In this document: piece after piece, positions 26,296-48,843 of the stretch | Numbering within the stretch: the stretch's first letter is position 1 | How the letters are laid out: every line of letters begins with the position of its first letter | Origin: Aquitalea magnusonii | GTDB lineage: Bacteria; Pseudomonadota; Gammaproteobacteria; Burkholderiales; Chromobacteriaceae | Direction of reading: 5' to 3' | Assembly: GCF_003202035.1 (NCBI RefSeq) | Contig: NZ_QJKC01000008.1 | Coordinates: 1 to 64,000, forward strand | Length of the DNA: 64,000 nucleotides | Notes under the pieces: generated by a model | What the model saw: the letters and a program-made list of their open reading frames with translations, nothing else | Told to the model about the DNA's origin: nothing | Database searches by the model: none | Program-made: the position numbers and the translations under genes

Positions 26296-26372
26296 GCACC
26301 CGTAGCTCAGTTGGATAGAGTATTTGGCTACGAACCAAAGGGTCGGGCGTTCGAATCGCTCCGGGTGCACCA
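26296..26372 (+). tRNA. tRNA-Arg (anticodon ACG), copy 1
   Basis: 77 nt with encoded CCA. Acceptor GCACCCG pairs with CGGGTGC; anticodon stem TTTGG/CCAAA encloses CTACGAA, giving anticodon ACG; T-loop GTTCGAATC is normal. ACG is normally edited to ICG and reads CGU/CGC/CGA. Confidence 0.97.
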
Positions 26373-26379
26373 CTACAGC

Positions 26380-26454
26380 GTCCCTATAGTTTAGCGGTTA
26401 GAACACCGCCCTTTCACGGCGGTAGCCGGGGTTCGATTCCCCGTGGGGACGCCA
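26380..26454 (+). tRNA. tRNA-Glu (anticodon TTC), copy 1
   Basis: 75 nt with encoded CCA. Acceptor GTCCC(T/C) pairs with the GGGGAC end; anticodon stem CCGCC/GGCGG encloses CTTTCAC, giving TTC; T-arm GGGGTTCGATTCCCC. Seven bases after the Arg gene. Confidence 0.97.
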
Positions 26455-26458
26455 CTTT

Positions 26459-26535
26459 GCACCCGTAGCTCAGTTGGATAGAGTATTTGGCTACGAACCA
26501 AAGGGTCGGGCGTTCGAATCGCTCCGGGTGCACCA
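26459..26535 (+). tRNA. tRNA-Arg (anticodon ACG), copy 2
   Basis: Base-for-base identical to the copy at 26296-26372, so this is a recent or homogenised duplication. The intergenic spacers differ in length (7, 4 and 2 nt). Confidence 0.97.
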
Positions 26536-26537
26536 AA

Positions 26538-26612
26538 GTCCCTATAGTTTAGCGGTTAGAACACCGCCCTTTCACGGCGGTAGCCGGGGTTCGATTCCCC
26601 GTGGGGACGCCA
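26538..26612 (+). tRNA. tRNA-Glu (anticodon TTC), copy 2
   Basis: Identical to the copy at 26380-26454. Last gene of the four-tRNA operon; a terminator follows 12 bp later. Confidence 0.97.
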
Positions 26613-45757: not shown

Positions 45758-45949
45758 TTATTGTCCGTCCTTGTTGTGCCGCGCCTGCCAGGCGGCCAGC
45801 CGGCTGCGGTAGTCGCGCAGCTCGGCATGATAGATGTCGAGAATGCAGGGATCGCAGCCGCTGCCGCAGCACATGTCGTCGCTTACCTCGAACGGCGGTT
45901 CTGGCATGGGATCGGCATCATCCGCCGCCGGCGGGAACGGCTCGCTCAT
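45758..45949 (-). CDS. Small oxidoreductase-like domain protein
   Basis: 63 residues. Cys-rich motif DMCCGSGCDPCILDIYHAELRDY matches the short oxidoreductase-like domain found alone in betaproteobacteria and at the N-terminus of some eukaryotic proteins. Function unknown. ATG overlaps the preceding stop (TGATG). Confidence 0.75.
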   Translation of the reverse strand: MSEPFPPAADDADPMPEPPFEVSDDMCCGSGCDPCILDIYHAELRDYRSRLAAWQARHNKDGQ

Positions 45950-46164
45950 CAGGCGGCCACCACCTTGATGGTAAAGCCCTGCCCGCTCACCACCTGACCG
46001 GCGCGGATCTTGCAGGTCTTGCGCAATTCCTGCACGCCATTCACCGCCACATTGCCCTCGGCGATGAAATGCTTGGCCTCGCCACCGGAAGAGCACACGC
46101 TGCAGCTTTTCAGCAGATCGCACAGGGCGATGTATTCGGTACTCAGTTTGTAGATTTCATTCAT
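45949..46164 (-). CDS. Small S4-domain RNA-binding protein (YbcJ type)
   Basis: 71 residues from the ATG at 46164. S4-like fold: IALCDLLKSCSVCSSGGEAKHFIAEGNVAVNGVQELRKTCKIRAGQVV. The start codon sits at the edge of repeat unit 1 of the hairpin array, whose conserved TGTG(C/T)AAA end immediately precedes the ATG. Confidence 0.82.
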   Translation of the reverse strand: MNEIYKLSTEYIALCDLLKSCSVCSSGGEAKHFIAEGNVAVNGVQELRKTCKIRAGQVVSGQGFTIKVVAA

Positions 46165-46378
46165 TTTACACATCCATTCTGGACAGGCTTGTGCACCGGC
46201 TGTGGACAAGACCTGCAACTGTTTGAGCGAAAAGTCATTTTTGCCATTGCCTGTTTTTTAGGCAGACGCGGCTGCTTTTCCACCTGTCAGCGGGACAGTG
46301 CTGTGGGGCAGCTGTGGAAAACAGGGACAAGGCCATGAATGATAAAGACTTTGTCGCCATTGCTTATTTTTTGGGCAA
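46165..46378. repeat. Hairpin repeat array, units 1 and 2
   Basis: Unit 1 contains GGACAGGCTTGTGCAC, TGTGGACAA (46201-46209) and hairpin TGCCTGTTTTTTAGGCA (46248-46264). Unit 2 is diverged, with TGTGGAAAA and TGCTTATTTTTTGGGCA (46361-46377), where two stem changes keep G-U pairing on the plus-strand RNA. Unit 2 overlaps the stop codon of the NadR-like gene. Confidence 0.75.
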
Positions 46379-46903
46379 ATCTGCCCGGCCCAGCGCCTGC
46401 AAGGCTTGTGCCAGCCGCGCGGCCTGCCCGCCTTGCAGCAGGGTATAGGCCACGCCCTGGCGCGCCAGTTCGGCCTGGTACAAACCCAGCAACCAGTCGC
46501 GCTGTGCGGGATGGCTGCGCAGCGGGTCTGGCTGCCAGGGGATATCGGCCGCCGTCAACAAGGTGAAGGCGTAGTCCTGCGGCCGGTACAGTTGCAGCAG
46601 TGCCGGCGAAGGCTGGCCAAAGGCCACATCGGCCCAGATCTTGCAGGTCAGCACCGTGGTGTCGCACACCAGCCAGTCGTGCTCTGCTGCCGCATGCTGC
46701 TCGGCCTGCAACTGACCGGCGGCGATGGCTTCGATATCGGCCATGCTCACCTGGTAGTCGCGCCCGGCGTAATAGGCACGGGCATACTCGGCCACGGCCA
46801 CCGCGCGCAAGCCCTGGCTGCACAAGGCGGCCGCCAGTTGCAGCGACAAGGTGCTCTTGCCGCAGGATTCCGGCCCGATGATGGCGATTCTGATAAGGGA
46901 CAC
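46364..46903 (-). CDS. NadR-like ATP-binding kinase (ribosylnicotinamide kinase domain, stand-alone)
   Basis: 179 residues. P-loop GPESCGKSTLSLQLA at ~9, then EYARAYYAG, CDTTVLTCKIWADVAFG and LLTAADIPWQPDPLR, matching the C-terminal kinase domain of NadR; the nucleotidyltransferase and DNA-binding parts are absent. It may phosphorylate nicotinamide riboside. The last codons (LPKK-stop) are formed by a repeat unit of the flanking array. Confidence 0.8.
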   Translation of the reverse strand: MSLIRIAIIGPESCGKSTLSLQLAAALCSQGLRAVAVAEYARAYYAGRDYQVSMADIEAIAAGQLQAEQHAAAEHDWLVCDTTVLTCKIWADVAFGQPSPALLQLYRPQDYAFTLLTAADIPWQPDPLRSHPAQRDWLLGLYQAELARQGVAYTLLQGGQAARLAQALQALGRADLPKK

Positions 46904-46964
46904 GGCAACTCACCAGCAAAGAGCATGATTATACGTCGGGATGGCAGCCCGCCAGTAGTCTTGC

Positions 46965-47665
46965 CGCGCATTTCTGTACACGGTGCACGGTTTCGCACAA
47001 GCGACGGGGACAGCCTTGTGCGTGAGCTGTGGACAAACAGGCTAAGTCGCTGAAAGTAATCAGCCTTGCACTGACTGCCTGTTTTTTAGGCAGGCCGGCG
47101 TTTCCCGCCACCTGCCCGTGGCCGGCAGCGTCATCGCAGTTTTACACACCGGGCGGGGAAAGGCTTGTGCACGGTCTGTGGGCAAGTTAGCTAAGTATCT
47201 GAAACGGGACAGGGTTTTGCTGGCTGCCTGTTTTTTAGGCAATCGCCTGTTTGACCAGCCGGCTGCTGCTGTCCACACCTGAAAATGAGGCTTGGCCGGG
47301 GTTTTGCACAGCTGGCGGGGACAGGCTTGTGCACGGCCTGTGGGAAACTGCAGCAAGCTACTGAAATCAATATACTTTTTCAAAAATGCTGATTTTTTAG
47401 GCAGCCCGCGCCAGTGCACCGCAAGCCTGCGGCCATGGCAGGCAGCAGCGGCTTTTGCACAAGCAGAGGGGACAGCCTTGTGTGTGGACTGTGGACAAAC
47501 TGTCTAAGCCATTGAGGTAAAAAGGGCTTTCCGTCACTGCCTGTTTTTTAGGCAGCCGCCCTGTTTTTCCCCACCCCGCGTGTACCACGGTGTGGAGGGC
47601 TTGTGGATAGCATGGGCAAGCTACTGATCTGGCAGTGAAAAATCCAGCTGCTTGTTTTTTAGGCA
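46965..47665. repeat. Hairpin repeat array, units 3-7
   Basis: Five imperfect units of 111-162 bp ending in hairpins at 47076-47092, 47225-47241, 47387-47403, 47538-47554 and 47649-47665 (type TGCCTGTTTTTTAGGCA). Each unit also carries a core GGGGACAG.CTTGTGCAC..CTGTGGACAA followed by .CTAAGC..CTGAAA. CTTGT..CAC/GTG..ACAAG can form a second imperfect hairpin, and TGTGGACAA (47028-47036, 47490-47498) is one base from a DnaA box. The 837-bp interval 46904-47740 holds no recognisable gene. Confidence 0.85.
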
Positions 47666-47684
47666 AATCACCGTAGCTGGCAGC

Positions 47685-47715
47685 AACAAGGGCGTGCCAA
47701 TGGCACGCCCTTGTT
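47685..47715. terminator. Strong hairpin downstream of the asparaginase gene
   Basis: Perfect 14-bp arms AACAAGGGCGTGCC/GGCACGCCCTTGTT with a 3-nt loop, 26 bp after the asparaginase stop. There is no good T-run, so it may be a 3'-end stabiliser or a weak terminator. Confidence 0.55.
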
Positions 47716-47740: not shown

Positions 47741-48733
47741 TTAGCTGCTCTCGCCCCGCAGCGGGGTCGCCAGCTGCTGGCGCAAGGACTCGCCACGCAA
47801 GCCCTGCGACAACAGCACCAGCAGCTTGGCGGTGGCTGCTTCCGGTGTCAGGTCTGCGCCGGCCACGGCCCCGGCGCGCGCCAGCGGCTGGCTGGCGGCA
47901 TAGGCCCCGACTTCCACCGCACCATGCACCACCTGGCTGATATTCAGCACTGCGCCACCAGTGGCGGTCAGCGCAGCCACGCCAGCAAGCAAGGCCGGAT
48001 CAGCCGGCGTATTGCCATTGCCATAGCTCATCAGCACGGCGCCATCCAGCTCGCCCGCCTGCATGATCTGTCCCGCAAGGGTGCTGGCATGGCCGGGAGT
48101 GAGGAAAAAGGTGGCAAGCTTGAGCGAGACATCCAGCTTGACCGGGGTGAAATCAGCCGTAGCGGCCAGCCAGTGCTGGCGCTGCCACTGGGCCTGAATG
48201 CCAAAGCTGGCCAGTGCCGGCGCATTGGGGCTGGCAAAGCCGGCAAAGCTGGCGGCATCCAGCTTGCGCGCGCGGCAGCCACGCAGCAGCAGGCGGTTGA
48301 AGGCAATGCACACTTCGTGCAGATCGGGCTGGCTGGCGGCTTCCAGCGCATCGGCCAGATTGCTCCAGCCATCCGAGCGCGGATGCACCAGCGGCAGTTG
48401 TGAACCGGTGACAATGACCGGCTTGGCCAGGCCTTGCAGGGCAAAGGCCAGCACGCTGGCGGTATAGGCCATGGTGTCGGTGCCGTGGATCACCACGAAA
48501 CCGTCGTAATCGGCATAGCGGGCGATCAGGTCATCCAGCAGTTGCTGCCACTGCGCCGGCACGATGGCCGACGAGTCGATCAGCTGCGGGTATTCCAGTA
48601 CATCGAAATCCAGCGCCGGCGTGCGAAAACGCTGCAGCAGCCGCGGCAGCAGGCCCGGCACCGGGGCCAGGCCCTCCGGGGTGTGGTCCATGCCAATGGT
48701 GCCTCCGCTATAGAGGACAAGCAGGCGGGTCAT
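47741..48733 (-). CDS. L-asparaginase (type I-like)
   Basis: 330 residues from the ATG at 48733. Asparaginase family: nucleophilic Thr in VLYSGGTIGM, second Thr in IHGTDTMAYTAS, and LPLVHPRSDGWSNLADAL. No signal peptide, so cytoplasmic. Hydrolyses Asn to Asp and ammonia. ansA would be the likely symbol but the subgroup is not certain. Confidence 0.88.
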   Translation of the reverse strand: MTRLLVLYSGGTIGMDHTPEGLAPVPGLLPRLLQRFRTPALDFDVLEYPQLIDSSAIVPAQWQQLLDDLIARYADYDGFVVIHGTDTMAYTASVLAFALQGLAKPVIVTGSQLPLVHPRSDGWSNLADALEAASQPDLHEVCIAFNRLLLRGCRARKLDAASFAGFASPNAPALASFGIQAQWQRQHWLAATADFTPVKLDVSLKLATFFLTPGHASTLAGQIMQAGELDGAVLMSYGNGNTPADPALLAGVAALTATGGAVLNISQVVHGAVEVGAYAASQPLARAGAVAGADLTPEAATAKLLVLLSQGLRGESLRQQLATPLRGESS

Positions 48734-48807
48734 GGTTGCATCCTTGGTCGACATCAAACAGCCGGCATGGTAGCGCAAAAACCGCAGGCCTGCGGCATCC
48801 CTGCCAT

Positions 48808-48843
48808 GACAAAACCCCCGTGACAGCATGGCTGCGACGGGGG
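48808..48843 (-). terminator. Terminator of the 181-aa exported protein gene
   Basis: Minus-strand arms CCCCCGT/ACGGGGG with a 15-nt loop, followed by TTTTG, 20 bp after the stop. Confidence 0.7.

Follow-up and report, generated by a model that had tools for sequence, protein, structure and literature searches.

Seven tandem repeats in Aquitalea magnusonii as a proposed array of DARS2-like modules with putative DnaA, IHF and Fis sites, and comparable arrays in other Betaproteobacterial lineages

The described systems closest to the array reported here are the DARS1 and DARS2 sites of Escherichia coli, which share a common spacing of their DnaA boxes and in which box I is opposed to boxes II and III (PMC5742627). 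DARS1 has one core and works in vitro without additional factors (PMC5742627), DARS2 has one core together with a regulatory region of ~400 bp (PMC5742627) and needs sites for IHF and Fis (PMC4245941), the two proteins that activate it and for which consensus sequences have been given (PMC4245941, PMC8682772). The sequences and spacings of the DARS2 core and of its IHF and Fis sites are conserved among the taxa named in PMC5742627, and the printed comparison of DARS sites in PMC8682772 covers seven species close to E. coli. The datA site of E. coli likewise joins a cluster of DnaA boxes with an IHF site; its essential boxes lie in one direction, and it promotes ATP hydrolysis and not nucleotide exchange (PMC5742627). 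Clusters of DnaA boxes that are not origins have also been described in Bacillus subtilis and Streptomyces coelicolor, where they lie close to oriC and can repress untimely initiation (PMC4585315).

The window analysed here is a stretch of 64,000 nucleotides of Aquitalea magnusonii (contig NZ_QJKC01000008.1), in which seven head-to-tail units occupy positions 46164-47664 of the + strand. Each unit is a module of ~100 bp with a fixed geometry, and its parts follow one another in the order DnaA boxes I to IV, IHF-like site and Fis-like dyad. Units 1 and 2 lie between a gene for an S4-domain protein (45949-46164, - strand; Pfam PF13275), at whose start codon box I of unit 1 begins, and a gene for a NadR-like P-loop protein (AAA_28; 46364-46903, - strand; Pfam PF13521, 85.6 bits), which separates unit 2 from unit 3; units 3 to 7 lie between the NadR-like gene and a gene for an asparaginase (47741-48829, - strand; Pfam PF00710 and PF17763) that forms the right flank of the array.

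Unit 1 (46164-46263) has box I TTTTACACA at 46164, box II TCTGGACAG at 46178, box III TGTGCACCG at 46190, box IV TGTGGACAA at 46201, the IHF-like site CAACTGTTTGAGC at 46216 and the Fis-like dyad GCCTGTTTTTTAGGC at 46249-46263. Given in the same order, the parts of unit 2 (46276-46376) stand at 46276 (TTTTCCACC), 46290, 46302, 46313 (TGTGGAAAA), 46328 and 46362-46376 (GCTTATTTTTTGGGC), and those of unit 3 (46991-47091) at 46991 (TTTCGCACA), 47005, 47017, 47028 (TGTGGACAA), 47043 (TAAGTCGCTGAAA) and 47077-47091. Unit 4 (47140-47240) has them at 47140 (TTTTACACA), 47154, 47166, 47177 (TGTGGGCAA), 47192 and 47226-47240, and unit 5 (47302-47402) at 47302 (TTTTGCACA), 47316, 47328, 47339 (TGTGGGAAA), 47354 and 47388-47402 (GCTGATTTTTTAGGC). 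For unit 6 (47453-47553) the positions are 47453 (TTTTGCACA), 47467, 47479, 47490 (TGTGGACAA), 47505 (TAAGCCATTGAGG) and 47539-47553, and for unit 7 (47565-47664) they are 47565 (TTTTCCCCA), 47579, 47591, 47602 (TGTGGATAG), 47617 and 47650-47664 (GCTTGTTTTTTAGGC).

The first-pass annotation of this DNA had described seven hairpin-bearing units at this place with their features in a fixed order, spacings of 149, 162, 151 and 111 bp between the hairpins of units 3 to 7, and exact copies of TGTGGACAA in units 1, 3 and 6; all of this is borne out, save that each unit begins further upstream than had been drawn, with TTTTnCACA or a near match to it, which is itself a DnaA box. The hairpin palindrome TGCCTGTTTTTTAGGCA has seven matches with up to three mismatches in the 64-kb window, all of them inside the array, where 0.13 would be expected and none of 100 shuffles reached seven. 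With no more than one mismatch, a threshold that the two most divergent palindromes of the array exceed, the A. magnusonii assembly (4.4 Mb, 49 contigs) has five copies and all are in the array.

Counting the first base of box I as 0, box I lies at 0-8 in forward orientation and boxes II, III and IV lie at 14-22, 26-34 and 37-45 in reverse orientation, with gaps of 5 bp between I and II, 3 bp between II and III and 2 bp between III and IV. Cores found in E. coli MG1655 between bioD and uvrB (L166) and between rppH and mutH (L155) have box I at 0 and reversed boxes II and III at +14 and +26, and the offsets from box to box in the array units (14 and 12 bp) are those of both E. coli cores. The bioD-uvrB core we take, by its location, to be DARS1 and the rppH-mutH core DARS2; a scan for DARS1 showed no such core between uvrB and ybhK, and it was found between bioD and uvrB instead. 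A profile of 181 units has conserved blocks at the places of the E. coli core and, unlike the E. coli cores, an additional box IV at +37. Of the 180 units used for counting, one of the 181 being cut short, 170 have TGTG at +26 and 177 have it at +37. Measured against the E. coli DnaA-box consensus, the units of the window have 0-1 mismatches in box I, 3-5 in box II, 2-3 in box III and 0-2 in box IV, the stronger reverse box being IV, and II and III being weak; a relaxed box II (NGKGGANAR) is present in 47 of the 180 units.

Downstream of the boxes, 77 of 180 units carry the IHF-like motif YAANNNNYTGAW (YAAnnnnYTGAW) at offset 52, and no other offset has it in more than one unit. None of the 180 contains TAAnnnnTTGATW, the strict IHF consensus, which the units of the window miss by two to three positions. 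The Fis-like motif in its relaxed form, GNNYRNNNNNYRNNC, is present at offset 85 or 86 in 165/180 units, a count that is unspecific when taken alone because the same form is matched at offset 29, inside the boxes, in 51/180; the strict form GnnYAnnnnnTRnnC is specific, with 105/180 units at 85/86 and no more than one unit elsewhere. One of the seven dyads in the window is strict and the other six have one mismatch, and the hairpin of the first-pass annotation, G-nn-Y-R-TTTTT-T-R-nn-C, fits the Fis dyad. Both sites fall within ~65 bp of the boxes, with the IHF-like site at +52 and the Fis-like site at +85/86, and this spacing differs from that of E. coli DARS2, where our own consensus matches place an IHF-like site (one mismatch) at +93/+109, an exact Fis site at +145 and a Fis site with one mismatch at +63. 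As for the proteins themselves, a Fis homologue is present in 13 of 13 genomes (5 above the curated cut-off of 99 bits and the other 8 at 96-98.7), IHF alpha in 8 of 8, and DnaA above its cut-off in 13 of 15 and in pieces in the remaining two. Second DnaA-like AAA+ matches of ~230 aa look like Hda, whose inactivation of DnaA would need reversal.

Within the family, 40 of 61 genomes contain the palindrome at no more than one mismatch, against 0 of 61 for a reversed control, and a profile built from the seven units brought out the copies in related genomes for which the first-pass annotation had suggested a search, with 181 units in 36 of 38 NadR-like loci, three to seven per locus and on one strand only. 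These loci are the window and 37 others, from Aquitalea, Chromobacterium, Vogesella, Pseudogulbenkiania, Crenobacter, Paludibacterium, Gulbenkiania and others, the 37 being drawn from the best 80 of 101 matches after 43, all Bacteroidota by title, were excluded; the NadR-like loci of Iodobacter and Amantichitinum had no units in the profile search. When five Aquitalea loci are compared, all 35 units have as their best match the unit with the same ordinal in another species. Identity between Aquitalea species is 92-98% in the boxes, 88% in the Fis window and 81% in the IHF window, as compared with 61-63% in the larger gaps and 80% and 76% in the two short box spacers. Same-ordinal matching and conservation of the sites together look like purifying selection on the sites of each position and not like recent duplication. 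Four further loci (L013, L014, L024 and L025, around 1501) have copies of the palindrome without a surrounding unit match, which are perhaps lone Fis-type sites, and in each of L026 and L027 a single weak unit match is present. A blastn search of a plasmid collection with 46900-47700 gave no match.

Loci L033 and L034 hold four and three units with no NadR-like match between the flanking genes, so the NadR-like gene is a neighbour that the array does not need. Its other retained relatives among the best 80 of 101 matches (L109-L111, L113, L114, L116-L152 and L154) all come from Bacteroidota, many of them Hymenobacter, and horizontal transfer of the gene is possible. The Fis-like dyad of unit 2 (window 46361-46377) extends over the final codons of this gene, stop codon included, and the protein end and the site may therefore be jointly constrained.

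Beyond the family we used a DARS-core pattern, which was written after both E. coli cores and the present array had been seen and has a single shifted-spacing control as its safeguard. Of the 300 genomes of the order, 227 contain it at no more than one mismatch (reversed control 7/300), and the same boxes with box I moved by 3 bp, enlarging the gap between I and II, are found in 5/300; over the class it is found in 143 of 185 genomes (control 4/185). All six matches in the A. magnusonii assembly lie in the array, the reversed control giving one match there. Seven genomes of the class have both cores and dnaA on a single contig (dnaA being in pieces in G416); none of their cores lies less than ~113 kb from dnaA, so that in these genomes it is not the dnaA region that the pattern picks up.

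Tandem arrays of such cores recur in four other families, here numbered f8, f10, f22 and f31. Twelve loci were chosen for clusters among the matches listed or (L202, G234) in a rescan of those loci, and with up to three mismatches they have six tandem cores per locus in f8, four to six in f10, five in f22 and three in f31. Their 63 units leave aside three weak opposite-strand cores of L201 and the Aquitalea locus L211, and units were listed for strands with at least three cores, which leaves out L209 and L210 among others. An IHF-like site, by a looser pattern, stands at 51, 52 or 63 in 43/63 units (30/36 in f8, 0/14 in f10, 10/10 in f22 and 3/3 in f31), and 32/63 have a Fis-like dyad, located at 84-86 or 97 (12/36, 8/14, 10/10 and 2/3 respectively); at other downstream offsets in the 63 units the IHF-like site occurs once and the dyad no more than once per offset, apart from six at 113. 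Some f8 units have the strict IHF consensus, and in two of the three f31 units both sites are displaced downstream by 11 bp, or one helical turn, while keeping the same distance from each other. In most units of f8 and f10 box II is close to consensus and a strong box IV is absent, with G234 of f8 as an exception, and f22 resembles the window in that box II is weak and box IV strong.

The surroundings of these loci are their own. A tblastn search with five proteins of the window neighbourhood found none of them in the 12 loci, and at three of these loci, one each from f8, f22 and f10, the ORFs belong to genes other than the neighbours of the array in the window, those at the f8 locus of G350 reading like xseA and exbB. 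Among the matches listed, three genomes have an f8 array 31-38% of the chromosome away from dnaA and the f10 arrays (L203, L204 and L205) lie about 42-85 kb from a dnaA gene, and since these distances differ the position of the array is not conserved between families. One f10 genome, G351, has two DnaA matches over the cut-off. Elsewhere in the class, a genome of another family has three cores 334 and 355 bp apart (G505:C4:287995-288713), and G392 and G532, of other families again, have seven cores that are mostly dispersed.

From the geometry, the conservation and the gene content observed here we infer binding of DnaA, IHF and Fis, and the locus is very probably a regulatory array bound by these three proteins. 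We also favour, with rather less assurance, the reading that it reactivates DnaA, its seven compact modules acting in tandem in the manner of DARS2. DnaA on box I would then stand head-to-head with DnaA on box II, with box III behind, to form the DARS core; box IV would be an extra, stronger DnaA anchor, and boxes III and IV would add DnaA molecules. IHF at +52 would introduce a bend, Fis would occupy the dyad at +85/86, and the two would trigger nucleotide exchange as they do at DARS2; the complex would strip ADP from DnaA such that ATP-DnaA is regenerated for the next initiation, with a predicted effect on the timing of initiation. Seven modules might give a high capacity, possibly cooperative and, through Fis, dependent on growth phase. 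The array shares with DARS2 a core with box I forward and boxes II and III reversed at 0/14/26 and a downstream Fis-like site, to which a putative IHF site may be added, and with DARS1 the core geometry; it differs in having seven cores where each of the E. coli sites has one, in the closeness of its sites to the boxes, in box IV, in its weak box II and in its neighbouring genes.

The main weakness of the DARS reading is box II, with its 3-5 mismatches, as the head-to-head pair of boxes I and II is key in E. coli. With a box II that fails to function, the array would serve as a DnaA sink under IHF and Fis control, and a sink is the main rival explanation: the array would titrate DnaA, or promote ATP hydrolysis like datA, and so lower the amount of free or active DnaA after fork passage. 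Its 28 DnaA-box positions within 1.5 kb, many of them weak, are consistent with this, as is the pairing of DnaA boxes with an IHF site in datA (PMC5742627); the combination of a stronger box IV with a weak box II agrees more with a binding site than with the textbook form of a DARS core, and the listed f10 arrays lie as near to a dnaA gene as might be expected of a post-initiation sink. Against this, the essential boxes of datA all point the same way (PMC5742627), whereas here box I is opposed to the others at DARS spacing, and is so in four other families as well, and pure titration leaves the fixed IHF-like and Fis-like positions unexplained. On balance we think a sink or inactivation site unlikely, if a serious contender. 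The first-pass annotation had offered a datA-like cluster bound by DnaA or other proteins as one of its options; the class of element was well chosen, and it is the likeness to datA that the opposition of box I to boxes II and III argues against.

A cluster of DnaA boxes might also be an origin of replication, and many such boxes are present in the array. It lies 15-29% of the chromosome from dnaA in the seven genomes with the array and dnaA on one contig (G002, G003, G004, G017, G021, G038 and G041, with units confirmed there), and for this reason it is not oriC. Sampling of G003 gave a negative GC skew for each of 11 stretches between 2.1 and 4.3 Mb, a span with the array (3.5 Mb) in its interior, and a positive one for each of 9 stretches between 0 and 1.9 Mb, the sign changing elsewhere than at the array; dnaA, at 4.24 Mb, is near the skew switch but not exactly on it. 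The array is neither origin nor terminus, and that it should be the chromosomal origin is extremely improbable. By eye, the rpmH-dnaA intergenic region of the A. magnusonii genome (L044, 1140-1490) has one clear DnaA box, TGTGGATAA near 1216, a paucity that could be held to favour an origin in the array; because there is only this one clear box upstream of dnaA, oriC of Aquitalea is not obvious from the sequence. The place of the array is a mid-arm one and in this it resembles DARS2, which lies ~20% of the chromosome from the E. coli origin.

The first-pass annotation had also read the changes in the hairpin stem as selection on RNA structure and had named a tandem small-RNA family as one option. 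The palindrome can fold, and unit 1 has a folding z-score of -2.05, but the other six units range from -1.48 to +0.50, and in unit 5 (TGCTGATTTTTTAGGCA) the stem is not fully preserved. The stem was tested on 69 distinct copies, from 134 of 181 units that passed a filter which itself requires the T-tract and the G/C ends. The two inner variable pairs are paired in 29 and 36 copies against 30.6 and 36.0 in shuffled columns, and thus show no covariation; the outer pairs 1/17 and 3/15 are slightly above the shuffles (3.2% and 1.5% of which reach them, in related copies and uncorrected). The half-sites of the dyad have similar base preferences at positions 3-5 and less similar ones at positions 1 and 6. 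In f22 the dyad at offset 85 carries an A-tract, i.e. it is flipped, as it is in one unit of Aquitalea L211, and a flipped dyad would suit a DNA-bound dimer better than an RNA loop. A scan of the array showed no sigma-70-like promoter and one terminator-like site against 2.6 in shuffles, and at gathering score Rfam has no match in the array, its only matches in the window being four tRNAs. These tRNA genes stand in tandem at 26296-26609, in two pairs of equal scores. Selection on RNA structure finds little support in these data, and tandem small-RNA genes or a structured RNA are most improbable.

That the units are a functionless, decaying tandem duplication, or a mobile intergenic repeat as the first-pass annotation had also considered, is scarcely credible, for although they look like tandem copies, with a mean mutual identity of 58% within a genome, they keep their ordinals in 35 of 35 cases, stand in place in 36 of 38 loci and have no further copy within one mismatch in the genome, and the conservation of the boxes but not of the larger gaps already speaks against a neutral process.

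DARS sites as such are already known; tandem arrays of compact core-IHF-Fis modules are new within the literature searched, in which neither a Betaproteobacterial DARS array nor tandem core-IHF-Fis modules were found (a search that included PMC12371093 and few subscription papers).

The reactivation of DnaA is known in detail from two single sites of E. coli, and the repeats suggest that these bacteria use an array of such sites where E. coli has two single ones. By sequence, the core geometry is widespread in the class as sampled, and compact tandem arrays are found in some families. Tentatively, we suggest that in several Betaproteobacterial lineages tandem arrays of three to seven self-contained core-IHF-Fis modules replace single DARS sites, at places specific to each family, with copy number setting the gain of ATP-DnaA regeneration or making of it a cooperative switch, and that the Aquitalea chromosome would have no DARS-type site other than this array. 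Such arrays are a natural dose series of minimal modules, with core, IHF and Fis sites within 100 bp, in which nucleotide exchange triggered by IHF and Fis may be studied, and they yield a prediction of how the timing of replication may be set in bacteria outside the enteric group.
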